Below are positions 1 to 47,409 of a DNA stretch of 64,000 nucleotides, one piece after another. Position numbers and translations under genes: made by a program. This stretch comes from Plumapathes pennacea (Eukaryota; Cnidaria; Anthozoa; Antipatharia; Myriopathidae), in contig OZ038464.1 in the NCBI GenBank assembly GCA_964036295.1, positions 802,001 to 866,000 on the forward strand, read 5' to 3'. The notes under the pieces were generated by a model that worked only from the letters and a program-made list of their open reading frames with translations, was not told the origin of the DNA and made no database searches. How positions within the stretch are numbered: position 1 is the stretch's first letter; every line of letters starts with the position of its first letter.

Positions 1-463
1 GTGTTCCTCGAATTCTTCCCTCTCTTACTGGAATTCTCTTCACTCCATCCTTCATGTACCACTTTTCAAACGTTCCGCTTGATAACGGCTCACCAACGCT
101 CTCGTTCTCTCCTCCAAGACGCAAATGGCCGTCAAACACATCAACACTCACAACATACGGTTTGGTGACGTCTCTCTTCACAAGCCTGATTCCCTTTCTC
201 TGTCCCGGTGACGACTTCATGCTCCACAACAAACCCATCGGTTCAATTCCAGTGTAAGAACCGCCGACAGAAGGCTGAGAAGAAACAGAAACTGTGCCGT
301 GTTCATCAGCAATGTAATGAGCGCTCGACTCGAATCTTTCTCCTTTATCTCCAGTGAGTTTCGCATGCAAAGTGACTTTCTGTTTTGCTAAGAGACCCGT
401 AACACAGACGCGTACAGTCTGATCGGTCAGGGACACAAATGGACAAACTCTGATCAACGCCAT
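1..463 (-). CDS. Acyl-CoA thioesterase/BAAT-family gene, exon 1 (partial at window edge)
   Basis: The minus strand reads from an ATG at 463 through about 154 codons of the N-terminal acyl-CoA thioester hydrolase/BAAT domain and leaves the window before the splice donor. It carries the shared landmarks HYIADEHGTVSVSSQPSVGG, PMGLLWSM and [15 protein letters not shown]. There is no presequence: the domain starts within about 10 residues of the Met, as in the genes at 1801-6049 and 9628-11361. The upstream flank (464-550) resembles that of the gene starting at 11361, with shared TGTAAGCGAAATA and CTTCATGTAAGCCAT motifs, so the two probably share a promoter type. The catalytic exon would lie left of the window. 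The family hydrolyses acyl-CoA to free fatty acid and CoA, or conjugates acyl groups to amino acids. Confidence 0.85.
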   Translation of the reverse strand, partial: MALIRVCPFVSLTDQTVRVCVTGLLAKQKVTLHAKLTGDKGERFESSAHYIADEHGTVSVSSQPSVGGSYTGIEPMGLLWSMKSSPGQRKGIRLVKRDVTKPYVVSVDVFDGHLRLGGENESVGEPLSSGTFEKWYMKDGVKRIPVREGRIRGT

Positions 464-1800: not shown

Positions 1801-4800
1801 CTACCGTATTAAAGAATAATGGCTTGTTAGATTCTCTGATAATTGATTACTGAAAAACTGAAGAATCTTGAGCCAAGAATCCTCCTGGGCATCTGCATGG
1901 GCCTTTGCTTCACCACCCCAGGCAAAGTAAGTGTACTGCGTCGACCCTAATTTCATGAATGACACAGCACAATGAGGAGTGTACGGTGGTTCAATGAGGT
2001 GCCCCGCCCCTGGGTACCCCTGGACAGTGCAGAGATGTCCCTTGCCATGCTTCTGCATCCTTTCAGCCATCTCGTTTACCAGCACTTCTGAAGCAGTGTT
2101 ATGGTCATCATCTCCATATACAAACAACACTGGACACTGGAGTTTCTCCACTGGAATGAGCAACGGAGAGTCGTCTCCCAAAGCTTTCACTCTTTCAATG
2201 AAGAATTTCCTCAAGATCACGGCACCATCCTTGCTTTGTTTATTAATGAAATCCAGGAAGTCAGGGGAGGTGTAGCGATGTTCCCCTTTTATCCCAAATG
2301 GAATGAAAAGAAAATTTAGTGGTGAGACTGATACAACAGCTTTGATGAGATCTGGTCTGCGAATGGCTAGCAGCAATGCATACTGGGATCCAACAGACAC
2401 ACTCATCACTGCAACACCATCAAATGAGATTTCTGATTGGCTCATCATCCATTCGGCAGCTTCTTCAAAATACTTCATCTCGACATCTTTGGAATCCCTT
2501 GGCAGATCGTCATAATTAAAGTAGGCTAAGGACAATGTCGCAAATCCGTGTGATGCCAGCAAGGATGCTTTCATCTCGACCAATCCTCCCACTGTACCAA
2601 ACCAGTCAATAACACCTAAGAGAAAACAAAAGAATTTGTTGAGTGAGACCATTTTCATATTGCAGTAATGCTAAAATCACCATGCAAGTACTGCAGCTTT
2701 TGCACACAAGAGAATGGGAAGCGAAAGATAGATATATTTTATTAATAAAATTTATAAAAACCGGCTTTATTCAAATGTCAATGTATTCAGCTTTTTATAA
2801 ACTAATTGGGGACACTGTAAAACATTTGCTGGCGAAAGTGACTAAATTACTAGTTATTAATGTATACAACACAAAAAAGGAAGACTAACTAAACCTTATT
2901 TGTCTGCAAAATGCTGCCTTAAAAATAAAACTGTGTCGGAAATTGTTAAATTATCGAATGATAACAAATATGAAAATTTTTTGCTATCGGATAGCACTAT
3001 GACGATACTCGGTCATGTGTCAAGATTACACCAATCAAATACAAGAAGGAATATATTTGACCTGTGGGACCCGTAAAATACGGTGATCAGATATCTTAAT
3101 TTTTTCTTATTCTTTTCTGTTTCACCCGGCATCTGAAATTCTTTTTCTGAACTCAAACAGAATTCTCAGCTTCAGTAATCGCGTCTTCGACCTGAAAGAA
3201 AAGCAACGGTCGAGAGGATTTCTGGCTGGCTTGTGCCGGCGATTCAGTTCGAATTGATATCAGAAATGAGGGGCCTGTACGTCGTGATATTTATGACTAA
3301 CACATTCCAATAGTTAAGATCTGAAGGAAGAGAAGGTGCTGGCACACTTGCCGTTGCTAATTTCCTAAAACAGGATATTCAATTAATAATAAGATCACTT
3401 AGATTTCCTGAGAAAGGCCTCAGTGTTAAACACCAGTAAACAACAACGTAAAATTTTGATTAAACATCTCTTCTAACTCTTCCAATTGTCAACAAAAGAA
3501 CTCCAACTCACTGATTTATTTGCTTCCAAAACTACGGGAAGATATTCCAGTTTCAACCTATAACACTTTTATTAATTTGAACTGAATCTCCGGCACAAGC
3601 AAACCAGAAACCCTCTCGACCGTTGCACTGCCGGTCAACCAAGCCGAGAACGCGACTTACACTGAAAGCATTCATCAAATTAACTTTGAGTGGGAGTGTG
3701 CCCCGGGCAATCTCTATGCTAATTGCAAACGTCTTTCGTGTATTTCAACTGTCGCCATATATTTTGTGGTTTGACGCCCCGGGACTGTAATGAAGGCCAA
3801 GTAGGATTATATTATGACCTTTTTGCCGATTTTTGAAGCTATTTCCGAGTGCCTTCGTGCAAGAGAACCTTTGGCGTTCCGTTTATATTTCAGAGCTTGT
3901 GAGATGCTGTGTTTATACGCGAGAAACAGTTTCCGCAGTAAACAATTCACCGCGGTAAGGACTCGGTCGCACTGGGAAGTTCAGTCGATAATAACTCAGC
4001 ATCGAGAGCAATTTACGACGGCTTCTTCAATGTTTGGTAGCAACTTACAGACATATCTTTCTGGTGACAAGCGCTGCTTGCACTTCAAATGATGGAAATG
4101 TCGATATTAATGTCGTTAAAGTTACGAGTGCGACTGGATCCTAAATTGGTATTTAACCAAATTGGCATTTATTAAGGTAAATTTTTTATTGTTCTGAACC
4201 ACACTTACCAAGGTTTTGTAAATTGTTTACACGCTCGGTACTTTTACTGCAGTAGAGTAAATTCTTTCACCGAGGTAAATGTGTCTCGTAAATTTAATGA
4301 ATTTCCACTGGTTTGCCGTTGTGTGGACTCTTATTTACCACGATTTACGTCATCGCATGGCGTCTAAATGTTGTGGACTCGCGAGGCGCTTAGTCGAACT
4401 AGTTCTGGTAAAATGCGGTGCAAACCCTTCTATACATCCGAGACTGTCTTGCATGCCAAAAAAGCGCATATTAGAACCATCATTCAATTAAAGCACAGTC
4501 GATCTTCGACTTTGTGGCGTAGCGAACAAGCTTTAAAAAGAAGACTGTTTCATCTTTGTTTTTTGTTTTTGAATTCTCTTTTTTCGGGTCAAGAATCAGC
4601 ACACGTTGATTGGTTCGCATTATCAAGGGATTTTCGACCCTGTATCCAATATTTTGACGCGGTGCAATGAAGGTCAAACAAACAGGGGCACCGATGACGT
4701 TTGTGAAAAACAAAGGAAGAAACGAACTTGACGCAAGCTGACGTCAAATCGACGCACGCATGCTGGTATGTTGAGTTAAAAATAGGGAAAAAAAAAGCCC

Positions 4801-6049
4801 AAAATATCCTTTTCCGGTGAATGTTTACAAGTTTATACAGTGTGCAAATTATCAGATGTTTCAATTTTTGGTTTGCATGTGACGTCATGAAAAAGGCATC
4901 TCAGATCAGCTTCATTTCGTGTTCCGAGTGATTGGCCACCATGCATGGTGGCCGCATACAAACTTTTATCAAATCTCCAAAAAACAAATTGCCGTTGCTT
5001 CGCCAAAATGAAGTCTAGACAATCCAAAATTCAGGCATGCTCTTTTCAGTTCTCGAGTCAAAAAGGTACAATAAAGAAACCCGTGAAAACCGCATTCCAC
5101 GGGGCCTTCGATAATTGATTTCTCTCAATTATTACAAAACACTTTTCGTGAATTTCTGTTTGACCGAAATTAGTAGAGAAGGGGCAAGAAAAAGAAAGAG
5201 AGCTCTTGGATCCGCCATGTGCAAAAATGACTCGGCTATAATATCGGCTATAATATCCGCGTCTCTATTCATTGTACTGACGCAACAAGCGCACTGGCCA
5301 CGGTCCTGTCTTGTTTTAACAGCAGCCCTGATTGCTTCATACTTCAGACTACATGCACAGACTGCGTCCCCAACGCAAACATTTTTTTTAGCGGCAGGAC
5401 GGCTGGTGACATTGCGCTTTACACAACTAAGGTTTGCAAAAGATTATGTAATCATCTAGCGGAAAATAAAGAAAAATCCCTGATCCCATTAACCCACCTT
5501 CAGGGCGAAGGGCGATTATCGTATTTCTAGTTATTAACATTGATTAAACAAACCTGGAAAAGGTCCGTCTCCCGGTGGAAGAAACAGTGTTCCTCGAATC
5601 CTTCCCTCTCTTACTGGAATTCTCTTCACTCCATCCTTCATGTACCACTTTTCAAACGTTCCGCTTGATAACGGATCACCAACGCTCTCGTTCTCTCCTC
5701 CAAGACGCAAATGACCGTCAAACACATCAACACTCACAACGCACGGTTTAGTGACGTCTTTCTTCAAGAGCCTGATTCCTTTCTTCTGTCCCGGTGACGA
5801 CTTCATGCTCCACAACAAACCCATTGGTTCAATTCCAGTGTAAGAGCCGCCGACAGAAGGCTGAGAAGAAACAGAAACCGTGCCGTGTTCATCAGCAATG
5901 TAGTGAGAGCTCGACTCGAATCTTTCTCCTTTATCTCCAGTGAGTTTTGCGTTTAATGTGACTTTCTGTCTTGCTAAGAGACCCGCAACACATACGCGTA
6001 CAGTCTGATCGATCAGGGACACAAATGGACAAACTTTGATCAACGCCAT
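1801..6049 (-). CDS. Acyl-CoA thioesterase/BAAT family, array copy 1 (two exons, 436 aa)
   Basis: Exon 1 is 6049-5554 and exon 2 is 2615-1801. The donor follows the Gly codon of GDGPFPG in phase 1; the acceptor CTTAG precedes GTGTTATTGACTGG. The joined frame is 437 codons. The N-terminal domain spans about 1-165 and the alpha/beta-hydrolase (BAAT C-terminal) domain about 166-425. The nucleophile is Ser239 in MSVSVGSQ, the acid lies in YGDDD at about 334, and the His is 371 in GAGHLIEPPYTP. A Ser nucleophile, rather than the Cys of BAAT, argues for a thioesterase. The start is the ATG at 6049, with no presequence, so cytosolic by default. The C-terminus runs past the S-H-L end of its sisters and finishes SHYSLIR. 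The elbow is S-V-S-V-G, off the usual G-x-S-x-G. The 2.9-kb intron holds old repeats. Confidence 0.88.
3198..3640. repeat. Inverted-repeat element inside the copy 1 intron
   Basis: About 3198-3260 (GGTCGAGAGGATTTCTGGCT and on through CCGGCGATTCAGTTCGAATT) is repeated inverted near 3570-3630 (TTGAACTGAATCTCCGGCAC through CTCTCGACCGTTGCA). A related single arm occurs at 7215-7275. This looks like the arms of a non-autonomous DNA transposon. No coding capacity was seen. Confidence 0.5.
4275..4400 (+). repeat. Fragment of the TTTACCACG-type palindromic MITE
   Basis: The stretch carries the block AATTTCCACTGGTTTGCCGT, GTGTGGACTCTTATTTACCA and GATTTACGTCATC. The same block is found in fuller form at 7430-7795, 48455-48800 and 52045-52310. 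Only one arm is preserved here, ending near GTGGACTCGCGAGGCGC. Confidence 0.6.
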
Positions 6050-8204: not shown

Positions 8205-9300
8205 TACCAATTACCACTCCCGATTTTTCACTATCGATTTTCACTCTCGATTACCACTCCCGATTTTCTCTCGTGATTACCACTCCCGATTTTCGCTCGT
8301 GATTACCATTCTGGAATACCACTCCCAGTAATAATCATGATTGATAATCGGGAGTAGTAATCGGGATTGGTAGAGCTGTTTTCGGCGGATGACTGTCGAA
8401 AGTAACCGTGTGATTGCTTTGGTTTTGCGTTTGCTACGCTTTCGGATTGGTCCACACAAGTTTGTCAGCATTCTCAACCAATCAGGAACAAAACAAAAAC
8501 AAAAACCAAAACACTTCTCACGCCAAGCGATGGCGTGTACTCGCATTGCTGATTGAAAAGTAAAACCAAACGCAAGACCAAACGCAAATCACTTTGGCTT
8601 CCAATTGGCTGAACTGTTTTCTCTTAGTCTCTGTGATTGGCCTGTGTGATTACTTTGGTTTTGGTTTTCGACAGTCATCCGAAAATGGCTCTAACAGGGA
8701 ATGGTTATCGGGAGTGGTAATCTGGACTGGTATTTGGGAGTGGTAATTGGAAGTGATAATCGGGAGTGGTAAATCGGGAGTAATAATCGAGAGTGGTAAT
8801 CGGGAGTGGTATTTGGGAGTGGTAATCAGGAGTGGTAATTGAGAGTGGTAATTGGGAGTGGTAATCGAGAGTGGTATTTGGGAGTGGCAGTAGGGAGTGA
8901 TAACATGGGGTGGTAATCGAGAGTGGTACTTGGGAGAGGTAATAGGGAGTGGCAGTCAGGAGTGGTAATCTCGAGTGGTAATATTGGGGGTGGTAATCAA
9001 GAATGAAAATCGAGTGGTAATTGAGTGGTAATCAGGAGTGGTAACTGGGAGTGGTAATCAGGAGTGAAAACTGGGAGTGGTAATCGAGAGTGAAAATATG
9101 GAGTGGTAATTGGGAGTGATAACAGGGAGTGATAATCGGGAGTGATAATCGGGAGTGGTGATTGGGAGTGGTAATCAGGAGAGGCAATCGGGAATGATAA
9201 TCGGGAGTGGTAATCAGGAGTGGTAATCGGAAGTGGTAATTGGTAGTGCTTGGGAGTGGTAATCGAGAGTGAAAATCAGGAGTGGTAATCTAATCATCAA
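8205..9300. repeat. Inverted minisatellite (GGGAGTGGTAATC)n interrupted by a MITE
   Basis: Units of about 13-14 bp read CCACTCCCGATTA from 8205 to about 8335. The orientation then flips, and they read GGGAGTGGTAATCG from about 8342 and again from 8695 to 9300, with many variants. The flip sits at CCAGTAATAATC. A MITE (8371-8694) is inserted just after the flip. The second locus (13815-14275) has the same architecture and the same lead-in TATATATACCAATTACCAAT. Confidence 0.85.
8371..8694. mobile_element. TIR-bounded MITE, GTTTTCGGATGACTGTCGAAA family
   Basis: The termini are GAGCTGTTTTCGGCGGATGA (left) and, inverted, TTTTCGACAGTCATCCGAAA followed by ATGGCTC (right). The internal sequence has stretches such as GGTTTTGCGTTTGCTACGC and ATTGGCCTGTGTGATTACTT. 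A full second copy in the opposite orientation lies at 15124-15441, and decayed copies at 49130-49262 and 62480-62620. No ORF. Confidence 0.8.
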
Positions 9301-9627: not shown

Positions 9628-11361
9628 TTACAAATGCCTTGTTAGATTCTTTGATAACTGATTACTGAAAAACTTTAGAATTTTGAGCCAAGAATCCTCC
9701 TGGGCATCTGCATGGGCCTTTGGTTCACCACCCCAAGCAAAGTAAGTGTATTGTGACCCTAATTTCATGAATGAGAAGGGACAATGAGGAGTGTATGGTG
9801 GCTCAATGAGGTGCCCCGCCCCTGGGTATCCCAGGACAGTGCAGAGATGTCCCTTGCCATGCTTCTGCATCCTTTCAGCCATCTTTTTTACCATCACTTC
9901 AGAACCAGTATTAAGGTCATCATCTCCATATATAAACAACACCGGACACTGGAGTTTCTCTACAGGAATGAGCGATGGAGAGTCATCTCCTAAAGCTTTC
10001 ACTCCTTCAATAAAGAATTTCCTAAACATCACAGCACCATTTCCATCCTTCCTTTGTTGGATATTACTTAAATCCGGAAAATCAGGAGGGGTGTAGCACT
10101 GTTCCCCTTTTATCCACATTGGTCTGGTAAAAAAACTTATTGGTGAGATAGATACAACAGCTTTGATGAGATCTGGTCTGCGAATGGCTAGCAGCAATGC
10201 ACGCTGGGACCCCCCAGACACACTCATCACTGCAACACCATCAGATGAGATTTCTGATTGGCTCATCATCCATTCGGCAGCTTCTTCAAAATACTCACTC
10301 TCAATACTTTTGGAATCCTTTGGCAGATCCTCATAATTAAAGTAGGCTAAGGACAATGCTGCAAATCCGTGTGATGCCAGCAAGGATGCTTTTATCTCGA
10401 CCAATCCTCCCACTGTACCAAACCAGTCAATAACACCTAAAGATAAAACAAAAGAATTTGTTGAGTGAGACCATTTTCATATTGCAGTAATGCCAGCATC
10501 ACCATGCAAGTGCTGTAACGCTCTCACACGAGAGAATGGGAAAAGATAGACTAACTAAACCTTTTTATTAGTCTTTAAAAAGAAAGCTGTGTCACATATT
10601 GTTAAATTATCAAATAATAACAAATATGACAATTTTTGATAGCATATATGAAGATATTTGGTCATGTGTCATGAGTACACCAATCAAGCACAAGAGGAAA
10701 TATATTTCATAGGTCACAAATTGATGCAACTTAATCAGGAGCCCACAACTTTTACAATGTCTTGCTGGTGAACTCTAGCCAATACTGTATCTCCCCCCCC
10801 GCCCCCTCCCCACCCACCCACACACAAAGGACTTTAATATTAACATTGATTACACCGACCTGGAAAAGGTCCGTCTCCCGGTGGAAGAAACAGTGTTCCT
10901 CGAATCCTTCCCTCTCTCACTGGAATTCTCTTCACTCCATCCCTCATGTACCACTTCTCAAACGTCCCGCTTGATAACGGATCACCAACGCCCTCGTTCT
11001 CTCCTCCAAGATCACGCAAATGACCGTCAAACACATCAACACTCACAACGTACGGTTTAGTTACGTCTCTTTTCAAGAGCCTGATCCCTTTTTTCTGTCC
11101 CGGTGACGACTTCATGCTCCACAACAAACCCATCGGTTCAATTCCAGTGTAGGAACCGCCGACGGAAGGCTGAGAAGAAACAGAAACCGTGCCGCGTTCA
11201 TCAGAAATGTAATGAGCGCTGGACTCGAATCTTTCTCCTTTATCTCCAGTGAGTTTCGCATTTAATGTGACTTTCTGTTTTGCTAAAAGACCCGTAACAC
11301 AGACGCGTACAGTCTGATCGATCAGGGACGTGTCACAAGGACGAACTCTGATGAACGCCAT
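9628..11361 (-). CDS. Acyl-CoA thioesterase/BAAT family, array copy 2 (two exons, 436 aa)
   Basis: Exon 1 is 11361-10860 and exon 2 is 10436-9628; the joined frame is 437 codons in the same phase-1 arrangement. Exon 1 carries two extra codons relative to copy 1, one of them Asp in HLRDLGGENEG. The nucleophile elbow is MSVSGGSQ, the acid is in YGDDD, and the His is in GAGHLIEPPYTP. There is no presequence; the ATG at 11361 was chosen by alignment with its sisters although the frame stays open to 11430. The C-terminus is LTRHL, a weaker PTS1-like end than the S-H-L of copy 4. A TIR transposon begins only about 105 bp upstream of the start and may have displaced the original upstream sequence. 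The intron is 423 bp. Confidence 0.88.
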
Positions 11362-13814: not shown

Positions 13815-14275
13815 CAATTACCAATTACCAATTACCACTCCCGATTTTCACTCCCGATTGCCACTCCCGATTATCACTCTCAATTTTCACTCTCGATTAC
13901 CACTCCCGATTTTCGCTCGTGATTACCATTCTGGAATCCCAGTAATAATCCTGAGTGATAATCGGGAGTGGTAATCGGGAGTAGTAATCGTATCGGGATT
14001 GGTAACAGGGAGTGGTAATCTGGACTGGGTATTTGGGAGTGGTAATCGGAAGTGGTAATTGGGAGTAGTAATCGAGAGTGGTATTTGGGAGTGGCAATAG
14101 GGAGTGATAACAGGGAGTGGTAATCGGGAGTGGTATTTGGGAGAGGTAATAGGGAATGGCAATCGGGAGTGGTAATCGAGAATGAAAATCGGGAGTGGTA
14201 ACAGGAGGTTGAAACAGGGAGTGGTAATCAGGAGTGGTAATCTAGAGTGGTAATAGAGAGTGAAAATTGTGAGTT
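13815..14275. repeat. Second inverted (GGGAGTGGTAATC)n minisatellite
   Basis: The architecture is the same as at 8205-9300: CCACTCCCGATT units first, a flip at CCCAGTAATAATCC, then GGGAGTGGTAATCG units to about 14275. It stops directly at the 3' remains of a thioesterase copy. The two minisatellites were therefore probably duplicated together with the neighbouring gene units. Confidence 0.85.
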
Positions 14276-14281
14276 AAGAAA

Positions 14282-14687
14282 ATGTCAGCTGATCTTTTGT
14301 TAGGGTTCAAGCTGGTCAGACTGTCAATCCTCCTAACAGTGGTCCCAAAAGCCCCCTGCCTATACAATAATATCACAAATGGCTTGTTAGATTCTTTCAT
14401 AATGGCTGGCGAGGATATCTGGCAACCTCCTATTTCATGCTTCACAGCAAACCCATCGGTTCAATTCCAGTGTAAGAGCCGCCGACAGAAGGCTGAGAAG
14501 AAACAGAAACAGTGCCGTGTTCATCAGCAATGTAGTGAGCGCTCGACTCGAATCTTTCTCCTTGATCTCCAGTGAGTTTCGCATTTAATGTGACTCTCTG
14601 TTTTGCTAAGAGACACGCAACACTTACGCGTACAGTCTGATCGATCAAGGACACAAATGGACTAACTCTGATCATGCAACGCCATGA
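14282..14687 (-). pseudogene. Thioesterase array relic, internally deleted (copy 3)
   Basis: 14282-14400 matches the 3' end and downstream flank of copies 2 and 4, including an S-H-L-stop equivalent. 14436-14687 is the 5' half of exon 1. Everything between (the hydrolase exon, the intron and the end of exon 1) is gone. At the junction lies a 31-bp stretch (about 14404-14434) identical to part of the LINE at 1267-1297. The normal ATG is shifted out of frame by a 4-bp insertion (ATGC) near 14673, and the Trp of MGLLW is a TGA stop. No function is expected. Confidence 0.9.
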
Positions 14688-14689
14688 TC

Positions 14690-14850
14690 ACAACACTTTA
14701 CACAGCGCGTGTGTAGAGGCGCTCTCTTACCAGTATGTAAAACTCTTTATAAAATAACTATGATAAATGAGCGCGCTCTGATTGGTTAGAAAACCATTTT
14801 ATAAATATGTACAAAGACATGGAAATGACGAATCCTGAAACAGAAAGACT
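14690..14850 (-). promoter_or_regulatory. 5' flank of the relic copy
   Basis: This is homologous to the region upstream of copy 1: a TTTACACAG block, AAAACTCTTTATAAAATAAC and GCGCGCTCTGATTGGTTAGA. It is preserved although the gene behind it is broken. From about 14850 to 15120 only anonymous sequence is seen. Confidence 0.4.
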
Positions 14851-17842: not shown

Positions 17843-20299
17843 TTACAAATGGCTTGTTAGATTCTTTGATAACTTATTACTGAAAAACTTTAGAATTTTG
17901 TGCCAAGAATCCTCCTGGGCATCTGCATGGGCCTTCGGTTCACCACCCCAGGCAATATAATCGAAATGTTGCCCTAAATGCATGACTGAGAAGGCACAAT
18001 GAGGAGTGTACGGTGGCTCAATGAGGTGTCCCTCCCCTGGGTACCCCAGGACAGTGCAGAGATGTCCCTTGCCATGCTTCTGCATCCTTTCAACCATCTT
18101 TTTTACCATCACTTCTGATGCAGAATCCTGATCATCATCTCCATATATAAACAACACTGGGCACTGGAGTTTCTCCACAGGAATGAGCGATGTAGAGTCA
18201 TCATCTAAAGCTTTCACTCCTTCAATGAATAATTTCCTAAAGATCACAGCACCATCATTACTTCGCTGGATATTATTTACATCCAGGAAATCAGTGGAGG
18301 TGTAGCGCTGTTCCTCTTTCATCCAAATTGGATCCAGAAAAAAATTTAATGGTGAGATTGATACCACAGCTTTGACGAGATCTGGTCTGTGAATGGCTAG
18401 CATCAATGCACGCTGTGAACCTCCAGATAGACTCATCACTGCAACACCATCACATGAGATTTCTAATTGGCTCATCATCCATTCGGCAGCTTCTTCAAAA
18501 TACTCACTCTCAACACTTTTGGAATCCTTTGGCAGATCGTCATAATTAAAGTAGGCTAAGGACAATGCCGCAAATCCGTGTGATGCCAGCAAGGATGCTT
18601 TCATCTCGATCAATCCTCCCATGGTACCAAACCAGTCAATAACACCTACAGTAACAGAAAACAATAATATTTTGCTGATTAAGACCATTTCAATTTTCAT
18701 ATTGCACTACAACACTGTTAATATCACCATAACCAACAACTACAACAACTTCCACTACCATTATGTACAATGCTACCTCAACAACACCTGGCTACTTCTC
18801 TACTACCACAATACTATCAACATTACTACCACCGTGCAACTACAACTATGTACTAACTATCATGGATGGGTCCAGACCTATGGAATCCAATCAGATTTCA
18901 AAAACATAGCTCTTTAATTGTTTTCCAAAAATTACGTTCCTGAACCCTAGTCAGATTTTTTTCAGGATTTACCCCTGACTAACTGCTGCCCTACTACTGC
19001 TGCTACAAGAATTGTTACTAATTTGCTGGTCAGCAGTCTATCCCCTCAGCTGAGCACACCCCAAGGGCTTCTGGGGCACGTTTTTGCACCTGCATTGCTT
19101 GGCTTTTGTTTAATCATTGTGGAACAATTTTGCATGCTCATTGCCCCACTTGGTCTGTAATATTCTCCTGCACCATTTTGAGGCCCATTGGTGTCTTCTT
19201 GTAGTTGTCACTTGTTTTGCCTTGACCTTGGAACAGCTTGTGATTGCATCCATGGCTTTGTTTGTGGTTGGTTGTACTGGCTGCTTGCTCGCCTGCAGCA
19301 AACCGTGTGCTTCACATTGCTTCAATCTGAACGCCGTCCAGATGGCATGCAGTATCTTCTACGTTTGTGCTCGCTCACTTCTGGCTGACAAGCATTGCAG
19401 GTTTTTCCACTTTAAGATAGGTTTATTTTGCTATTCGCCCATGTTCCCTGTGATGGCTATGTGTAGCTACTGTGTCTTCTAGCCCTGTGTCGCTCAGGGC
19501 CTTGTGTTGCTTGAGTTCCTGGCATGCTTGTTTGAGACTTGGTGCTGGTTGCTCCTGGTCTTTGTGCTTCCTCAGTTCCAGGTTCCACCCTTTCCTGCTT
19601 ACACATTCTCTACTTGCCTTCCACTGCTATTTCTGCCTAGCAGTGCATACCATACTGTACACAATTTCCTCACCAGGACTCTTTGCTGCGTAACCCTCCA
19701 CAATGAAGTACTAACAATATTATTTTCTCCTTCCTCCCACTTTTCTCCTCTAAATTTTTTACGGCTGGCACATGCCGGGTACCTTAACATTGATTACACA
19801 AACCTGGAAAAGGTCCGTCTCCCGGTGGAAGAAACAGAGTTCCTCGAATCCTTCCCTCTCTCACTGGAATTCTCTTCACTCCATCCTTCATGTACCACTT
19901 CTCAAACGTCCCGCTTGATAACGGCTCACCAACGCTCTCGTTCTTTCCTCCAAGACGCAAATGACCGTCAAACACATCAACACTCACAACGTACGGTTTA
20001 GTGACGTCTCTCTTCAAGAGTCTGATTCCTTTTTTCTGTCCCGGTGACGACTTCATACTCCACAACAAACCCATCGGTTCAATTCCAGTGTAAGAACCGC
20101 CAACAGAAGGCTGAGAAGAAACAGAAACCGTGCCGTGTTCATCAGCAATGTAGTGAGCGCTCGACTCAAATCTTTCTCCTTTATCTCCAACCAGTTTTGC
20201 ACGCAAAGTGATTTGTTGTGTTACTGACAGCCCCTTCACTAAGATATCGACTTTTTCGTCGATCAGAGAAACGCGTGGTTTCACTCTGATGTCGGCCAT
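17843..20299 (-). CDS. Acyl-CoA thioesterase/BAAT family, array copy 4 (two exons, 432 aa)
   Basis: Exon 1 is 20299-19804 and exon 2 is 18645-17843; 433 codons in frame. The start MADIRVKPRVSLIDEKVDI has no presequence, but residues 10-45 resemble the mitochondrial class (SLIDEKVDI) more than copies 1 and 2 (SLIDQTVRV), so exon 1 looks mosaic. The nucleophile elbow is MSLSGGSQ, the acid is in YGDDDQ, and the His is in GEGHLIEPPYTP. The protein ends KNLTSHL; S-H-L fits the loose PTS1 consensus, so peroxisomal import is possible. The intron (18646-19803) holds an ACAACTAC-rich tract near 18720-18860 and otherwise nothing recognised. Confidence 0.88.
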
Positions 20300-20578
20300 C
20301 TTTTCCGGTTACGTAACGTTCGTCCGAGTAGGCCTGGGCAGGGTCTGCCTGAAAAGTTAAAGAGAGGGGTGGGGAAGGGAAGAAGGGGATTCCTTTTGTT
20401 TTGACAAACTGGCGACTGGAGTTGAACCGCAAAAGGTTTTATTATTAAACAGCAGTTCTCTAGAGAGTCACCTAAAACCTCCCTTCAGTTTTATTCACTC
20501 TCCTAAGCTCATTATAAATTCTCCTAACTTGAGACACTAAAGGATAAAATCAAAGTTGATCACTTTGTAAACTATCAA

Positions 20579-22195
20579 TCATGTCAAGTTTTTCCCGAGG
20601 AACTGCAACACTCTTAGCCAAAAGTCTTCCTCAGCCTTTGCATGACTCTTCATTTCGCCACCAAAAACTAAGCATCTTTTCCAGCCGCTATGGTATCCAA
20701 TGTAGTGGCACGGCTGATAAGGGACTTGTATGATGTGACCTGCCCCATCATATGAAATCACAGTGCAAAGAGACCCCTTCCCATTTTTTGCCATTCGCTT
20801 ATAAAGACAGCCAGCCATGAAGGCTGCCTCGAGGGCCTGGTCATCTTTCCCACACCCAATTAGAACTGGACAGTTTATATTTTCTACTGGAATGTACTCA
20901 GGGGAAGATGAATGGATGTCTAATTTGAACTCGGGAGGAACACGATCCCACATGACAAGGTCTTGATTTGATGTTTCCCAAACTCTGTTTTCATCATCAA
21001 CTTCTTTAATTAGTTTTCCTTTCACTTTGACAGGGCACACGACAATCAGATTTGGTGGTGAAATAGCCACAACTCCCCGGATCAAGTTACTAGTGTGAGC
21101 AGCTAACAACAAGGCCAGTTCAGCTCCCTTGGAAATACCGACAACTCCAATGCCTGCCGAGTTGATTTTGGGGTGACACCCAAGAAACGACGCAGCCTCT
21201 TCGAAATAATCCAAATCCAGGGGGGTCATTGGTGGTGGTAGATCATCAAAGTCCCAATATGCAAGTGCCAGGGATGCAAAGCCACGTGACGCAAGCAAGG
21301 ATGACCACCAGTCCCACGGACGTCCAGCACTGCCAACAATCTTCATAACACCTGATAAAAATTATTTCGTTTAAAGTTTTTCAAGAAAAACAATATTATT
21401 TTGTGGCGCTATAAGATAATGTCTAAACTGATCAAGGAGTGAAGACGTTTATGCATAAGACAACTTCATTATTCCAACATGTGTGGAACAGGAAATGCAT
21501 GGTAACCAAATATGAAGAGTGCAATAAAAGTGGGAATTTCGCTTTGTCTGTTGATGGTGGAAGAAGAGCATTTTGTAGTTGTGCAGAGAAGTACCCGAGG
21601 TGCTGAAACATTAGTGGCTGGATTTACCTGGAAAAGGTCCGTCTCCCGGTGGAAGAAACAGTGTTCCTCGAACCCTTCCCTCTCTCACTGGAATTCTCTT
21701 CACTCCATCCTTCATGTACCACTTCTCAAACGTCCCGCTTGATAACGGCTCACCAACGCTCTCGTTCTCTCTTCCAAGACGCAAATGACCGCCAAACACA
21801 TCAACACTCACAACGTACGGTTTGGTGACGTCTCTTTTAAAAAGCCTGATCCCTTTCTTCTGTCCTGGTGAAGGTTCCATGCTCCACAACAAGCCCATCG
21901 GTTCAATTCCAGTGTAAGAACCGCCGACAGAAGGCTGAGAAGAAACAGAAACCGTGCCGTGTTCATCAGCAATGTAGTGAGCGCTGGATTCGAATCTTTC
22001 TCCTTTATCTCCAGTGATTTTTGCCTGTAACGAAATGTCCTTCCGAGGTGGGAGTCCGTGTACTTGAATGTCCACTTTCTCGTCAATCAGCGAGGTCGAG
22101 GGATCCACTTTGAGACAAACTTTCCACTGAGACAGCTGAGCTACTGCAATGAGTGATTTTTTAATCCTACGCAATTGTCTTGTAACGGTGAGCAT
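20579..22195 (-). CDS. Acyl-CoA thioesterase/BAAT family, array copy 5 (two exons, 446 aa), mitochondrial-type
   Basis: Exon 1 is 22195-21628 and exon 2 is 21351-20579; 447 codons. The N-terminus MLTVTRQLRRIKKSLIAVAQ is Arg/Lys-rich with no acidic residue before Asp31, which is typical of a mitochondrial presequence. The hydrolase exon is the most divergent in the array: it begins GVMKIVGSAGRPWDWW, and the elbow is the canonical VGISKGAE with Ser263. The acid is in CGKDDQ and the His in GAGHIIQVPYQP, where the others have IEPPYTP. The C-terminus is LGKNLT, with no PTS1. Despite that divergence, the second part of exon 1 is nearly identical to all other copies. The intron is 276 bp. Confidence 0.88.
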
Positions 22196-22199
22196 TTCT

Positions 22200-23280
22200 C
22201 CAGACTTACCAAATAAAAATGCGACCCTCCACTCCGCCCGTGGTCAACAATAGATCCCAGGCCTTCTGCACCAAAATCAGCAGGGGGGGGGGGGGGTGGG
22301 GGTTGGGGGTGGGGTTGGGGGAGGCGGGAGTGGGGGGAGGGGCTGGGGGAGGTGTGGGTTAATTTATGATCTACTGTTGTTCAGGTTTCATGTGATGTCA
22401 TGAAGGCTATGCTACAATGTAGTCTGAATCCAGGATTGATTAAAAACCAAGAATACAGAGGTAATATAATAAACAAATTATTTTATCTATGGAGAACCAT
22501 GGGCAAAAAGTGACAGAGAGGAAGGGGGAGAAGAGGTTTTTTTCCTACCTCCCCTTTTCTCTCCATTATGTTTTGCCCACCACCCCTCGGCTTGCCCCCA
22601 AAATAGATCATTTTAAACCAAGCAGAAGTGACACCAGACATTGTAATAAGTATGTTTACCTGATCTGGTCAAAATTTAAGTGTAAATTGTTGAATGTAAA
22701 ATGAAGATGTGAAAATATATTTTTTCTATAAAATACTGCATAGTCATGTGAAGTGTCACAAATTCAACACTCCTCCAAGTAACTAGTCCGCTCGCAACCA
22801 TTTTTGTGGTCGCAACACCTTGTGCCTCTCCCGACCACAAAAGCTGCTGCAAGCAGACTATCAAGTAAAATATTTTTTGCAATTCTGAAAATATAGGAAC
22901 TCTTGATAATTTTTACTGATCAAAGTTAATACTCTGAATATAAACCCTATCAACACATGTTCCATATAAACATGCAGCTATACAAAAAATTTATTTGAAG
23001 TCAACAATGGAATAATGATATCATTTTATTACCACAATAGTCGGTCAACTAAAATTAAAATAGTAGCCATGCATACAGCATCTTGGAAGGTCAATTTATT
23101 GTTCAAAACATGATTAGAGTTATCCTGGACTTCTGAAGGTTAAAATGTTTTTGTTAGCTTTACTATTAGTGTTAGTTTAATGAGTTTTATGTCACACACA
23201 CATGGCAATCATCTCCGAAGACATTCTGAAAAAGGCGTTCTGAAGATTTCCGAAGTTCCAGTTTGCACACTCTAGTTTGT
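22200..23280. other. Intergenic stretch without recognisable gene
   Basis: A G-rich tract of G-runs and GGGGTGGG words lies at 22283-22355. The rest is AT-rich single-copy-looking DNA. No splice-bounded exon could be supported. Confidence 0.5.
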
Positions 23281-23282
23281 AC

Positions 23283-23570
23283 TGACTTGGTGGCCGAGCG
23301 GTTTGGGGGTGGTGGACCTGAATCTGTAATGAAGCTCCAAGCCAGGAGTTCGTGGGTTCAATTCCCATGGCCAGCAGTAGTAAGGTTTTTCATCCGAGGA
23401 GGCAACTCCAACGGTTTTTCCCTTCCGAACCTGTCTTCTTTCTACAGGTATTCCACCGGTCGGACATTTGAAACATGAGCCTCTGGCTTGGGAGAAATGG
23501 GCAACCACTCCCTAATGCTTCGACTTTAAATAAACAATATTTTTATATTTATTTATTTAAACAAAGCCTC
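23283..23570 (+). mobile_element. tRNA-derived SINE
   Basis: The head resembles a class II tRNA (Leu/Ser type): TGGTGGCCGAGCGG supplies the A box and GGGTTCAATTCCCATGGCCA the B box and acceptor side. A non-tRNA body follows (GTAAGGTTTTTCATCCGAGG and on), ending in an AT-rich TTTATATTTATTTATTTAAA tail. The anticodon arm is not tRNA-like, so a functional tRNA is unlikely. It sits between the 3' end of copy 6 and the 5' end of copy 5. Confidence 0.7.
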
Positions 23571-23629
23571 TCCACTAGTAACTTTTCCCTCAAAAAATTG
23601 GAGAATTTTAGGAATTAAAGTACTGTCAT

Positions 23630-25410
23630 TTACATCGAAAGATGTTTTCTCAAGAACTTTAGACTCTTATTCCAGGAGTCCTCTTGGGCCACGGAATGAG
23701 CTTTGGGTTCCCCACCCCAAGCTACAGTGACACCCAAGACTGTGTGATAAGATGTGCGGCAGAGTGGAGTATAGGGGGGTTCAATAACATGCCCTGCATT
23801 GGGATACCCTAAAACTGTGCACAGTGATCCCTTGCCATGATTTTCCATGCGGCGTGTAATGTGTGCAACCTCATAAGGAGCATTAGCTGAAAGGTCATCA
23901 GATCCATAAATCAAATATAATGGACAGTTGATCAGCTCTACTGGAAGTACAGCTGGTGAGTCGTCATCCACGTAAAAACATTCTCTGCTGAAGAAGTCAT
24001 CGTCCTTCGTTTTTTCTACTTTGCTGGCATTAATTGGCACATACTCCAAAGACCTGCCTTGGTGTCGGAACGGAGAAATGAGCCGCGAATGAAATGGAGA
24101 CACTGCAACCACAGCTTTTATTATATCCCCCCAGTATCCTGCCAATGTAAAGGCAAATTCTGAGCCTTTAGAAAATCCAAGCAAGCCAATCCCTTGGGAT
24201 GACACACAAGGCATATCAAGGAGCAGCCTGGCAGCTTCTTCAAAGTACTCCACCTCAACTTCCTCCATTGATTTTGGGAGATCTTGGTAAGCAAAATATG
24301 CAAGTGACAGGGCAGCAAAGCCACGAGAAGCAAGCAGGGCTCCTTTAGCTTCATTTAATCCACCAGCACTTCCTGAAAACTCCATAACACCTGCGAAGGA
24401 GTACACAATCATTTAAAGTAGTTTGAGCTGTAGGGAGCTATAGTTTATGACTTTCAGTGACTTACAATATTATGAAATTATCTTTTGATGAGATCAATCA
24501 TAAGGTTATTAGATATGCATTACCACAGAAACATAATTTTGTCACACAATCTCACATTTGATGCAGAGTGGGTACATACTTCCCAGGCTCTTTTCCTACC
24601 CCACAGAGCCTGGGAACGAGGATGAACTGCATTTTCAGTGATGCACCGATGGCGTTACGGGTAACAGTAGGGTAGGGTAGGGGGTAGGGTGGAACAGCTG
24701 GAATAAATATTATTAATCACAGCTGCATTCATTGCTTCTTCATGTAGCAACATGCAAGTTAGAACCTGTGCTTATACAGCTGAACCACAGACTAACAATA
24801 AATATATACAAAATACTGCAACAAGCACTTTTATCATCTAACCTGGAAAAGGTCCGTCTCCCGGAGGAAGAAACAGTGTCCCTCGAATCCTTCCCTCTCT
24901 CACTGGAATTCTCTTCACTCCATCCTTCAAGTACCACTTTTCAAACGTCCCGCTTGATAACGGCTCACCAACGCTCTCGTTCTCTCCTCCGAGACGCAAA
25001 TGACCGTCAAACACATCAACACTCATAACGTACGGTTTGGTGACGTCTCTCTTCACAAGCCTGGTTCCTCTCTTTTGTCCTGGCGAAGGTTCCATGCTCC
25101 ACAACAAACCCATCGGTTCAATTCCAGTGTAAGAACCGCCGACAGAAGGCTGAGAAGAAACAGAAACCGTGCCGTGTTCATCAGCAATGTAGTGAGCGCT
25201 CGACTCAAAGGCTTCCTTCGAATCTCCAGTGAGTTTTGCCTGTAACGTTATGTCTTTCCGAGGTGGGAGTCCGTGTACTTGAATGTCCACTTTCTCGTCA
25301 ATCAGCGAGGTTGAGGGATCCACTTTGAGACGAACTTTCCATTGAGACAGCTGTACTGCAGCGATTGGTGGTCTTTTAATCCTGAACACTCGTCTTGTCA
25401 AAGTCAGCAT
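23630..25410 (-). CDS. Acyl-CoA thioesterase/BAAT family, array copy 6 (two exons, 442 aa), mitochondrial-type
   Basis: Exon 1 is 25410-24843 and exon 2 is 24390-23630; 443 codons. The start MLTLTRRVFRIKRPPIAAVQ is a presequence-like basic segment, first acidic residue at about 31, closely matching copy 5. The frame is open upstream to 25488, but the aligned Met at 25410 was chosen. The hydrolase exon has the elbow LGFSKGSE, the acid in YGSDD and the His in NAGHVIEPPYTP. It ends RKHLSM, with no PTS1. The exon 1 tract from GDSKEAFESSAHY to the donor is almost identical to the other copies. The intron is 452 bp. Confidence 0.88.
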
Positions 25411-27254: not shown

Positions 27255-28868
27255 TCACAAATGACTCTTGACATATTTTGATGAGAGATGTTTTCTCAAG
27301 AACTCAAGACTTCTGTGCCAGGAGTCCTCTTGGGCCACAGCATGAGCTTTTGGTTCTCCTCCATGCACCATAGTAACACCAAAAACTTTATGATATGATG
27401 TGTGGCAGAGAGGGGTATAGGGGGGTTCAATTAAATGCCCTGCATTTGGATACCCTGAAACTGTACACAGTGATCCCTTCCCGTGATCATCCATGCGAAG
27501 CTGAATCCGCTCAACCTCGTAAGGAGCATCAGCCACAAGGTCACCTGACCCATAAACCAAATAAACTGGGCAGTTTATCTGCTCAACTGGAATGACAGCA
27601 GGGGAGTCTGCATCTGTGAAGAGACAATCCTTGATGCACACATCACCACTTTCTGTTTGCTTTATTTTGCTGGGATCAAAAGTCACAAACTCCAAAGGGT
27701 TTCCTCTGTGGAGTAAGGGAGAAATATACAAAGCGTGACCTGGCGAGACTGCAACCACAGCCTTTATGATGTCACCACGGTGTGCTGCTAAGGTCAAGGC
27801 AATCTCTGAACCCTTTGAAATGGCAAACAGTCCTATTCTATGTTGAGAAACACAAGGGTTTTGAAGAAGAATCCTGGCAGCTTCCTCAAAATACTCCAGT
27901 TCAACTTGATCCAGCGTTTTTGGAAGATCTTCATAAGCAAAGAATGCCAGCGATAGAACAGCGAAACCGTGAGAAGCCAGCAATGCTGCTTTGAATTCAT
28001 ACAGTCCACCAGCACTTCCCAGGAATTCCATGACACCTGATAGGAAATAATTAAAGCAACAATGACAATTTTTAATTGTAAAGTATTTAATAAAGATTTA
28101 AAAGCTGGACTTGAGGAGATGGGGGAGGCAGGGACTTCCATGTAAGAGTGGGTGTGGTACCCAACGCCACTGTGGTGACTCTGGTTCACACAAGCTTTCG
28201 AGTTATCCCAATCAGGCAATGTAAACACGGTGCATGTTTCATTTTTCCTAAATCATTTTATTTGCTTATATACCTGGAAAAGGTCCGTCTCCCGGTGGAA
28301 GAAACAGTGTTCCTCGAATCCTTCCCTCTCTCACTGGAATTCTCTTCACTCCATCCTTCATGTACCACTTTTCAAACGTCCCGCTTGATATCGGCTCATC
28401 AACGCTCTCGTTCTCTCTTCCAAGATGCAAATAACCGTCAAACACATCAACACTCACAACGTGCGGTTTGGTGACGTCTCTCTTCAAGAGTCTGATTCCT
28501 CTCTTTTGTCCTGGTGACGGTTCCATGCTCCACAACAAACCCATCGGTTCAGTTCCAGTGTAAGAACCGCCAACAGAAGGCTGAGAAGAAACAGAAACCG
28601 TGCCGTGTTCATCAGCAATGTAGTGAGCGAATGACTCAAAACTTTCACCTTTATCTCCTGTTAACTTCGCATGAAGAGTGAGGCGTTGTTTTGGAGCTAG
28701 TCCGACAACATCTAACTCGATCTTTTCGTCGATTAAGGATACAGCTGGTTTCACAAGTATCTTTGGCTTAGAGCTTGCTGCTACTACACTCTTCGTGAAG
28801 GTAAAGGCTTGCTGTATGCTGTAAATCCTGGAAAGAGAGTTTAACCGAAGTCGACCTCCAACCAACAT
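27255..28868 (-). CDS. Acyl-CoA thioesterase/BAAT family, array copy 7 (two exons, 458 aa), mitochondrial presequence plus C-terminal SHL
   Basis: Exon 1 is 28868-28274 and exon 2 is 28036-27255; 459 codons. The N-terminus MLVGGRLRLNSLSRIYSIQQ and the following ~25 residues are basic and hydroxylated, with no acid before about residue 48, so a mitochondrial presequence is likely. The hydrolase exon has the elbow FAISKGSE (Ala where Gly is usual), the acid in YGSGD and the His in NAGHLIEPPYTP. The protein ends YVKSHL, a PTS1-like tripeptide, so both organelle signals occur in one protein. The intron is 237 bp. The start lies 192 bp from an oppositely oriented ATG at 29061. Confidence 0.88.
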
Positions 28869-35770: not shown

Positions 35771-36029
35771 AGCTTGCACAGATTGGATTAGTTCTTGGAA
35801 TGCGTGCAAATAAATGCCCTGTGCCAGGCCAAGTTTGCTGATGCAACCTTCAACAAGTTGCTGCTGTGCACTGAAGGAGCTCTTCTTGTACAGTTTTGCA
35901 ACAGCGTTTTGTTGCAATTCTTACTACGACCCATGTCAACAAAAACAAAGACACGTTCTTACCTTAGTCCAAGAGGTGTAAAGTGATAGTCACACCAGGA
36001 CAACAAGGAGACAGCAGCAGGGTGAGAGG

Positions 36030-36580: not shown

Positions 36581-36904
36581 ACTGCCAACTGGACAACCCG
36601 ATACGCCCAGTGTGTATACCTTACAAAGCCAAGGAAGCATCCTACACGGCATCGAAACGCAAAACGCAAAGGCGACAATCAGACACGCCAGGGCGACAAC
36701 CCCCCGCGGCTACCTAACACGCCTTACGACGGCAAGCAGGCACGAAATGGGGGAAGTAGGCACAAGACGAGAGGCGGTCGCAGCTATGCGCCGAGTATCG
36801 AGACGGTAGGCCTGCCACATAATGACAGAAGGCATACCACAGCAAGACGTGCCATTCCTGCCCGCAGCAAGACAGCATAAAGGTTTCGAGAAAACAGCCG
36901 GTGA

Positions 36905-39128: not shown

Positions 39129-39135
39129 CGCTGCT

Positions 39136-40484: not shown

Positions 40485-40576
40485 CCAAGCAACTCAAGCA
40501 AAACTTAATGGAACTAAGAAGCAACCAAGGCAACAGCAACAGCAAAACTAGTGACTAGCAAGAAAACAGAAAAGAA

Positions 40577-44799: not shown

Positions 44800-47409
44800 A
44801 AGCTTGTGCATTTCAGCCACTCGTATCCCCGCACCATTCTGTGAAAACCTCATGCCTTGGGAGCAAAAAATGTTGGCAGGTATAGACAAATGTTGTAATC
44901 TTTACCGACTGGATGATGGTACAGAAATGGAGGAAGATACAATTTTAGATTTGGGGGACACATCGATTTGGGGCGAGAAGTCATCTTCTTTATCTCTCAG
45001 GAAGGCGAGAGATGGATGTAAGTTAACTTTCTTAGACATCAAGTAGCTGGGTCAACAGATCAGTTTCTAAAACCTGTAACATGAGTCATGTTATAATAAA
45101 CAACATTTGTTTTAACACTAGACTCTCATGCATGCTGAGAAGGGGAAGGGGGGGGGGGTAATTTTTTAATAATTCAAATTGCAGGGGGTGGAAATTTCAA
45201 CCTTCAGATTATTTAGAAATATATTCCTTCCCCTAAAATATATTAAAAATATAAATCTTCACTGCAAATGGTTTGAAACCAGGATTGTGAACAGTAGGTT
45301 GGTTGTGATCATCTGGGTTTGAGTAGTCTCCAGAAGGACTGTTGTTGGTGACTGACGTTTCAACTGGAAAGCTGGTACACAAACTTAGAACAGAAATCAA
45401 TCAACAGATGCCAACAAGTACCTGCCCTTACAAACGATTGATAGATGACATCAAACGCAACCGAACGAACAATAGACAAATCAACAGAACATCCACTGAC
45501 CAATAACAAAACACAACCAAGACAACTTGACCAACCATAAGCCGACAAATACGGACCAGTCACTTCAACAACCAGAGACATAAATACCGCCATCTGACAA
45601 ATACTTTCACTTGACTCTGAAGATGACCTCCACTCAGGGAGTCGAAACGTCAGTCACCACTGGAGACCACTCTAACCTGGATGATCACAACCAACCTACT
45701 ACAAATCTTCATATTGGCCTAAAACATTCACAAATGACTCTTGACATTTTGATGAGAGATGTTTTCTCAAGAACTCAAGACTTTTGTGCCAGGAGTCCTC
45801 TTGGCCCACAGCATGAGCTTTTGGTTCTCCTCCATGCACCACAGTGACACCAAAAACTTTATGATATGATGTGTGGCAGAGAGGGGTATAGGGGGGTTCA
45901 ATTAGGTGTCCTGCATTTGGATACCCTGTAACTGTACACAGCGATTCCTTCCCGTGCTCCTTCATTCGCTGCTGAATCCGCTCAACCTCGTAAGGAGCAT
46001 CAACCACAAGGTCACCTGACCCATAAACCAAATAAACTGGGCAGTTTATCTGCTCAACTGGAATGACAACAGGCGAGTCTGCATCTGTGAAGAGACAATC
46101 CTTGATGCACACATCACCATTCTCTGTTTGCTTAATTTTGCTGGGATCAAAAGTCACAAACTCCAAAGGGTTTCCTCTGTGCAGTAAGGGAGACAAATAC
46201 CGAGCGTGATCTGGCGAGACTGCAACCACAGCCTTTATGATGTCACCACGGTGTGCTGCTAAGGTCAAGGCAATCTCTGAACCCTTTGAAATGGCGAACA
46301 GTCCTATTCCATGCGGAAAAACATGAGGGTTTTGAAGAAGAATCCCAGCAGCTTCCTCAAAATACTCCAGTTCGACTTGATCCAGCATTTTTGGAAGATC
46401 TTCGTAAGCAAAGAATGCCAGGGATAGAACAGCAAAACCACGAGAAGCCAGCAATGCTGCTTTGAATTCATGCAGTCCACCAGCACTTCCCAGGAATTCC
46501 ATGACACCTGATAGGAAATAATTAAAGCAACGATGATAATTTTTAATTGTAAAGTATTTAAAAAAAGATTTAAAAGCTGGACTTGAGGTGGGGGAGGGAC
46601 TTGCACGTAAGAGTGGGGGTGGTACCTAACCCCACCGTGGGAGCTCTGGTTCACACAAACTTTCAAGTTCTCCCAAACTCCCCCTCATGTTTTTATCACA
46701 CAATGTAAACATGGTGCATGTTTCATTTTTCTTAAATCACTTTATTTGTTCATATACCTGGAAAAGGTCCGTCTCCCGGTGGAAGAAACAGTGTTCCTCG
46801 AATCCTTCCCTCTCTCACTGGAATATTCTCTTCACTCCATCCTTCATGTGCCACTTCTCAAACGTTTCGCTTGATAACGGTTCACCAACGCTCTCGTTCT
46901 CTCTTCCAAGATGCAAATAACCGTCAAACACATCAACACTCACAACGTTCGGTTTGGTGACGTCTCTCTTCACAAGCCTGATTCCTCTCTTTTGTCCTGG
47001 TGACGGTTCCATGCTCCACAACAAACCCATCGGTTCAGTTCCAGTGTAAGAACCGCCAACAGAAGGCTGAGAAGAAACAGAAACTGTGCCGTGTTCATCA
47101 GCAATGTAGTGAGCGAATGACTCAAAGCTTTCACCTTTATCTCCTGTTAACTTCGCATGAAGAGTGAGGCGTTGTTTTGGAGCTAGTCCGACAACATCTA
47201 ACTCGATCTTTTCGTCGATTAAGGATACAGCTGGTTTCACAAGTATCTTTGGCTTAGAACTTGCTGCTACTACACTCTTCGTGAAGGTGAAGGCTTGCTG
47301 TATGCTGTAAATCCTGGAAAGAGAGTTTAACCGAAGTCGACCTCCAACCAACATGGCGGCGAAAATTAGCGCTAACCCGCAGGGACTGGTCCGAGTCTGT
47401 CATATCTCC
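44800..47409. other. Segmental duplication, unit B (contains displaced copy 8)
   Basis: This matches 25690-28926. Both breakpoints can be read: similarity starts near TTTCAGCCACTC (about 44811) and ends after CTGTCATATCTCCG (47409). Unit B lacks about 650 bp present in unit A near 26105-26750. The orientation is the same as unit A and the distance about 19 kb. Confidence 0.85.
45699..47354 (-). pseudogene. Acyl-CoA thioesterase array copy 8, two 2-bp frameshifts
   Basis: Exon 1 would be 47354-46758 and exon 2 46507 to about 45730, colinear and near-identical with copy 7. In exon 1, a 2-bp insertion (GGAATATTCTC against GGAATTCTC, about 46824) turns VKRIPVREG into VKRIFQ-stop. In exon 2, a 2-bp deletion (GACATTTTG against GACATATTTTG, about 45746) replaces the YVKSHL end with 17 unrelated residues, stopping at 45699. 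The hydrolase core itself (AISKGSE, YGSGD, NAGHLIEPPYTP) is intact. It is called a pseudogene because exon 1 cannot be read through; an assembly error or alternative splicing could change that. Confidence 0.8.

Follow-up and report, generated by a model that had tools for sequence, protein, structure and literature searches.

A homogenised exon-1 core in a tandem array of acyl-CoA thioesterase genes, probably overwritten by repeated gene conversion

The thioesterase array and its copies

The window analysed here, a stretch of 64,000 nucleotides (C3:802001-866000) from a genome that was searched over 290 Mb in 24 contigs, contains copies of a minus-strand tandem array of two-exon genes, in which exon 1 encodes a Bile_Hydr_Trans domain (PF04775) and exon 2 a BAAT_C domain (PF08840). 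This thioesterase family is an old tandem family, and its exon 1 ends in a tract of ~390 nt, from about TGDKGERFESSAHY to the splice donor (...PFP-G|GT), that is far more alike among the copies than the sequence on either side and that has very probably been overwritten repeatedly by ectopic gene conversion between array copies. Genes are named g0-g11 by their order on the chromosome, so that copies 1, 2, 3, 5, 6, 7, 8 and 9 of the window are g3, g4, g5, g7, g8, g9, g10 and g11 (Table 1), and d1 and d2 denote two genes outside the array, at 23.66 Mb.

PF04775 was found in all three exon-1 proteins submitted (E 6.8e-43 or better) and the alpha/beta hydrolase domain PF08840 in all four exon-2 proteins submitted, and the only solved proteins matched were ACOT2 (3hlk) and ACOT4 (3k2i). 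All 12 exon-2 proteins possess a Ser in an S-x-G-like motif together with an aligned Asp and His, which we take to be the catalytic partners of the nucleophile. A passage of the paper on the history of BAAT and ACOT (PMC6934887) gives a Cys as the nucleophile of BAAT; the Ser motif therefore points to thioesterases, and judged from their predicted products the array genes look like type-I acyl-CoA thioesterases rather than Cys-type BAAT. Mammalian type-I ACOT and BAAT have the same two domains as the array genes, and when protein chains are compared, the match of ACOT to exon 1 stops and the match to exon 2 starts at the same GPFPG residue. The mammalian type-I ACOT genes form a gene cluster. 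To our eye, the leaders of copies 6-9 resemble mitochondrial presequences, copies 1-3 having short leaders, and the C-termini SHL, RHL or SSL of several copies presumably resemble peroxisomal signals.

A profile search of the genome found at least 14 exon-1 (PF04775) places, a search for exon 2 (BAAT_C) at least 12 places, and a DNA search with the tract at least 15 matches, which comprise the array at 0.79-0.85 Mb, d1 and d2 23 Mb away from it, and a scrap of 114 nt. The tract is present at all 14 PF04775 places found, with copy 4 carrying only a part. The initial annotation, made from the window alone, had seen the tract in all nine window copies; eight of them do carry it, and copy 4 is a fragment that keeps ~137-150 nt. 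An exon 2 for copy 4 was looked for and not found, and this copy enters none of the divergence, fragment, tree, recombination, simulation, neighbour, young/old-pair or edge analyses below. Copy 1 is truncated by the window edge, yet complete in the genome. Copy 9, with a frameshift in the tract but an open exon 2, is either a young pseudogene or the product of an assembly error. First in the numbering is g0, an orphan exon 1 with no exon-2 remains found in the 7.9 kb downstream of it (best E 0.26), which is a possible donor copy. All ATG positions were inferred from open frames.

Table 1. Exons of the thioesterase copies and isolated tract sequences (positions in the window unless marked chr)
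Feature	Position	Strand	Remark
Copy 1 (g3) exon 1	1..463	-	likely ATG near 463; tract 1-352 within the window, remainder past the edge (chr C3:801966-802352)
Copy 2 (g4) exon 1	5554..6049	-	tract 5554 to ~5940
Copy 2 (g4) exon 2, BAAT_C hydrolase	1801..2615	-	
Copy 3 (g5) exon 1	10860..11361	-	tract 10860 to ~11250
Copy 3 (g5) exon 2	9628..10436	-	
Copy 4, truncated exon-1 fragment	14434..14759	-	part of tract only, ~137-150 nt
Copy 5 (g7) exon 1	19804..20299	-	tract 19804 to ~20191; leader differs from copies 1-3
Copy 5 (g7) exon 2	17843..18645	-	nearest to g2-g5 (dS 0.16-0.22)
Copy 6 (g8) exon 1	21628..22195	-	579-nt block, 90.7% identity to copy 7
Copy 6 (g8) exon 2	20579..21351	-	against copy 7: dS 2.1 (saturated), 40% amino-acid identity
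Copy 7 (g9) exon 1	24843..25410	-	tract 24843 to ~25230; likely ATG at 25410
Copy 7 (g9) exon 2	23630..24390	-	related to copies 8 and 9 (dS 0.92-0.99)
Copy 8 (g10) exon 1	28274..28868	-	tract 28274 to ~28660
Copy 8 (g10) exon 2	27255..28036	-	
Copy 9 (g11) exon 1	46758..47354	-	recent duplicate of copy 8; 2-nt frameshift within tract
Copy 9 (g11) exon 2	45699..46507	-	
g0, orphan exon 1	chr C3:791882-792381		open frame, full tract
Isolated tract scrap	chr C3:13544802-13544914		~114 nt of the 3' end including the donor; 10-13 Mb from gene copies

Silent divergence and the edges of the tract

Silent divergence was estimated by the method of Nei and Gojobori (NG86) over the 66 pairs of 12 exon-1 copies, i.e. 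the eight window copies other than copy 4 together with g0, g1, g2 and d2. In the tract, the median synonymous divergence (dS) is 0.186 (0.067-0.355) and the median non-synonymous divergence (dN) 0.046, whereas the 27 codons preceding the tract have a median dS of 2.30 and exon 2 is saturated at a median dS of 2.14 (proportion of synonymous differences, pS, 0.71), NG86 values above ~1 being unreliable and values above 2 standing for saturation. Third positions are invariant in 0.60 of the tract columns versus 0.03 of the exon-2 columns (10 genes), and the identity of the copies to copy 5 over the tract is ~88-96%. The initial annotation had described the end of exon 1 as nearly the same in all copies, silent positions included, and had predicted a dS near 0 inside the tract and a high dS outside. 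The regional contrast is indeed there, low in the tract and saturated outside, but the tract is low rather than near 0. The wide divergence that had been described for the hydrolase exon is borne out by the saturation of exon 2, and that of the first codons holds between clades but not within them, the leader part being clade-specific: copies 1-3 are alike, copies 6 and 7 are alike, and copies 8 and 9 are identical over these 27 codons.

Edge profiles of the tract were drawn from 10 array genes (g0, d1 and d2 excluded), which give 33 cross-clade pairs. At the 3' edge, identity in 15-nt bins rises from 0.77 through 0.91, 0.94, 0.96 and 0.98 to 1.00 at the donor, and then falls in the intron to 0.49, 0.24, 0.23 and 0.25; from 16 nt into the intron onwards identity is at the random level of 0.24, and between exon-2 clades the introns have no BLAST match with one another at E 1e-4. 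Similarity had been proposed to end right at the donor for copies 5, 6 and 7, whose exon 1 ends at 19804, 21628 and 24843 on the minus strand, and this is correct between clades, but copies 2, 3 and 5 have ~20 nt beyond the donor in common. The 5' edge is gradual: in steps of five codons, identity at third positions is 0.38, 0.71, 0.55, 0.80 and 1.00. Mechanistically, strand exchange would begin inside the homology island, and the heteroduplex would then extend to the wall of the unrelated intron, leaving an abrupt 3' edge once mismatches are repaired, while on the 5' side it would fade into coding sequence that is homologous but over-diverged, which would leave a graded edge.

An abrupt 3' edge at the donor would in principle also result if conversion were templated by spliced complementary DNA (cDNA), with edges exactly at the exon ends, and it agrees with such a template that the homology of g0 to the clade-A copies starts 2 nt ahead of its likely ATG and ends at the donor. 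However, the intron is retained in 12 of the 12 genes having both exons, and a cDNA template would homogenise the start of exon 2 too, where third-position identity between clades is 0.39, as in the rest of exon 2. Conversion from cDNA is therefore disfavoured, and we regard it as extremely unlikely. Another simple explanation would be that the copies are merely recent duplicates whose exon 2 evolves fast under diversifying selection. Recent duplication did take place within clades (copies 8 and 9, g2 and g3), but the silent-site saturation of exon 2 between clades rules out diversifying selection on recent duplicates, and the unmatched introns of different exon-2 clades speak against it as well, so that this explanation has practically no chance of being correct.

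Exchange, constraint and the question of a single spread

The tract, exon 2 and the leader record conflicting histories. Trees were compared for 10 genes; g0 has no exon 2 and was left out, as were g11, the tract of which is cut at its frameshift, and d1, because of indels. By the approximately unbiased (AU) test, both the exon-2 tree (p=0.025) and the leader tree (p=0.001) are rejected by the tract data, exon 2 in turn rejects the tree of the tract (p=6e-40) and that of the leader, and the leader data reject the tract tree and the exon-2 tree (p ~0.005). The same genes were subjected to a GENECONV-type fragment test on third positions, for which our own script was used and not the published program (400 permutations). 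As the initial annotation had anticipated, shared fragments were detected, namely in 28 of 45 pairs at a global p<0.05, with pairs of copies not being independent of one another; 26 of the fragments begin in exon 1 and 2 are located in exon 2, and 13 of the 26 exon-1 fragments finish no more than 5 codons from the donor.

Low silent divergence could also arise if the silent sites of the tract were constrained as nucleic acid, be it by splicing signals, RNA structure or an overlapping function, and no exchange took place. Silent variants are indeed spread unevenly over the tract (P=0.003) and are few beside the donor, where the last 10 tract codons have 1 silent variant and 5 would be expected (P=0.035), and the climb of cross-clade identity towards the donor, from 0.77 to 1.00, points in the same direction. 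The scarcity of silent variants near the donor and the unevenness suggest some splice-related constraint there as well, and such constraint probably adds to conversion. As the sole cause, however, constraint is ruled out by the young array pairs. In a comparison of young and old pairs among 11 genes (without g0 and d1, an exon-2 dS of 2.0 standing in for saturated pairs), the old pairs would require a silent tract rate lowered to ~0.1 of that of exon 2, and at this rate constraint predicts 0.8-2.0 silent tract differences in the young pairs, whereas 7-16 were found, with an excess in 11 of 11 pairs (P 3e-11 to 2e-4). Two of the young pairs are recent in their flanks too, g10/g11 being alignable through the intron and ~475 nt downstream and g2/g3 over ~907 nt downstream. 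The excess of silent differences in young pairs means that the tract is not slow but has been reset in old pairs. Constraint also does not predict tract trees that conflict with the exon-2 and leader trees, and constraint without exchange thus appears very unlikely. Taken together, the low silent divergence whatever the age of the pair, the tree conflict, and the end at the donor argue for an island that is overwritten by conversion.

Has this overwriting been recurrent, or did one exon-1 version spread once through the family and then diverge in the ordinary way? In favour of a single episode, the inner branches of the tract tree are short and poorly supported, and silent divergence in the 34 old array pairs varies to the same extent as binomial noise would (0.039 vs 0.039), which, taken alone, fits a single episode. 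Nevertheless, a single burst followed by independent mutation yields too few shared variants and is ruled out by their excess in the tract: in 12 copies (without d1), there are 46 informative tract sites as compared to 29-34 on average in the simulations, the shared minority alleles number 141 as compared to 44-82, and 0 of 300 single-burst simulations reached either observed value under each of three rate models. Part of this sharing is ordinary ancestry, e.g. that of g10 with g11. A second line of evidence comes from d2, the tract of which differs from those of 11 array copies by a mean of 0.161 at third positions of codons for the same amino acid, close to the distance of d2 and g1 in exon 2 (35/208=0.168), whereas the array copies differ among themselves by only 0.106 at such positions (54 pairs, without g10/g11). 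With d1 as outgroup, d2 has 23 unique changes in exon 2 and g1 has 48, which makes d2 the slower of the two. As the array copies are closer to one another than to d2, homogenisation must have continued after d2 had left; most simply, d2 left a family that was homogenised already and then escaped, whereas conversion continued in the array. A single episode would moreover need several separate replacements, each of which would itself be a conversion, and we consider it unlikely.

Apart from the uneven silent variation, its scarcity beside the donor and the binomial spread of old pairs, several further results weigh against repeated overwriting by conversion. By mean tract distance, d2 ranks only fourth of 13, although d1 ranks first. 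The stricter Shimodaira-Hasegawa (SH) test on the tract data just retains the exon-2 tree (p=0.050). The mark of GC-biased conversion is not seen, as GC content at third positions (GC3) is 0.42-0.47 in the tract versus 0.38-0.46 in exon 2, and fourfold-site GC is mostly lower in the tract; a raised GC3 is a common but not a necessary mark of conversion. The pairwise homoplasy index (PHI) is not significant inside the tract (11 copies, without g11 and d1; p 0.16 and 0.28). Neighbour compatibility in the tract has p 0.001 for the 12 copies, but the signal is weak after thinning (p 0.015) and in the thinned set without g11 (p 0.077), and it vanishes on third positions (0.45). A Mantel test of incompatibility against distance found no correlation in the tract (r from -0.02 to 0.04), and the evidence for mosaicism within the tract is weak. 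Finally, tract and exon-2 divergence correlate (Spearman 0.71 for 45 array pairs, 0.54 for all 55), which means that ancestry has not been erased.

Re-pairing of leaders and catalytic exons, and related systems

By their exon 2, the genes group into g1, d1 and d2; g2, g3, g4, g5 and g7; g8; and g9, g10 and g11. By their leaders, they group into g0-g5 with d1 and d2; g7; g8 and g9; and g10 and g11. As the two groupings are unlike, leaders and catalytic exons must have been re-paired. The sequences of g1 and g2 are 91% identical over 1,357 nt upstream, leader included, at an exon-2 dS of 1.22, and those of g2 and g3 have an exon-2 dS of 0.11 and are 90% identical over ~907 nt downstream. The block shared by g8 and g9 (copies 6 and 7) begins 8 nt ahead of the likely ATG and ends at the donor, and otherwise there is one 45-nt match in the saturated exon 2 when 2.2 kb around each gene are compared. 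In case of g10 and g11, the 5' flank has 4/262 differences versus 77/1170 in intron and exon 2 (p=5e-4).

The initial annotation had inferred ectopic conversion confined to exon 1. Conversion is supported by silent divergence, fragments and trees, and the confinement applies between clades, but not more generally: copies 6 and 7 share the whole coding exon 1, and exon 2 of the young clade of g2, g3, g4, g5 and g7 recombines (PHI p 0.006), with fragments shared by g2/g3 and g3/g5. Exchange within young groups thus extends beyond the tract into exon 2.

It may well have been at this island that 5' leaders came to be combined with new 3' catalytic exons, because g2 has upstream DNA like that of g1 and an exon 2 like that of g3, and because copies 6 and 7 have the same exon 1 and an unrelated exon 2. 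As a tentative extension, it is conceivable that the homogenised core serves as a recombination joint at which leaders are swapped against catalytic exons, whereby targeting and substrate specificity would be reshuffled, and that exon-limited conversion is common but unseen in the tandem arrays of corals, because whole-gene and intron criteria miss it.

Which known systems resemble this array? In the clustered protocadherins of fugu, as far as the sections of PMC1852091 available describe them, regional gene conversion includes silent sites and has a discrete boundary inside an exon, and as in the present case, one sub-region of a coding exon in a tandem family is homogenised and another has diverged. 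The same sections indicate an identity of >99% and a raised GC3 there, whereas here identity to copy 5 is lower and GC3 is not raised, and the 3' boundary here is a splice donor beside unrelated introns. The mammalian pairs BMP8A/B, DDX19A/B and TUBG1/2 show mosaic concerted evolution with GENECONV support, with some exons concerted and others diverged as in the array (from an extract of PMC2720389); according to that extract, however, the mammalian tracts include introns, the pairs having been so chosen, whereas the array, with a dozen copies involved, leaves introns out between clades. Gene conversion has also been suspected in the coral fluorescent-protein genes, likewise a multigene family, although the authors, in the part of PMC4657232 at hand, call the evidence for one gene unclear; unlike in that part, the tract, its edges and the rival explanations have been tested here. 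The available text of the BAAT/ACOT history paper (PMC6934887) mentions neither a homogenisation of the N-domain core nor gene conversion, and our literature search found no paper that joins acyl-CoA thioesterase, coral and gene conversion. The process as such is known from the protocadherins; what is new, as far as the literature search shows, is where it occurs, how cleanly it is limited to an exon, and that leaders and catalytic exons were re-paired.

In the available portion of PMC10236652, a survey of coral genomes, gene conversion is described as very rare in corals, on the basis of mutations that linked copies carry mostly in introns. Should the host be a coral, as the initial annotation held, the array is a clear counter-example to the rarity claimed in that portion. 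An intron-based criterion can fail when conversion stays within one exon beside an unrelated intron, and in trees of whole coding sequences from such families several histories are mixed. New combinations of leader and catalytic exon would also be a concrete route by which an enzyme family can change its cell compartment while its core remains unchanged.

Some further sequences lie in or near the array. Downstream of g8 there is a segment of 437-454 nt that matches sequence downstream of g2 and g3 at 93-94% identity and is perhaps a repeat element. Diverged 13-nt tandem repeats that are similar to one another occur within the array at window positions 8668-9280 and 13927-14307. At 38271-41516, on the minus strand, lies a retroelement, one end of which is tyrosine-recombinase-like (Phage_integrase E 2e-4, which is below the Pfam cut-off). 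It has an open frame with what we take to be a reverse-transcriptase-like motif, and its anatomy is one that we would call DIRS-like. Of 67 genomic candidates for a 601-nt piece of this element, 40 places reach at least 95% identity. The element is adjoined by two long arrays of 21-nt tandem repeats (35887-37565), which have open frames in more than one reading.

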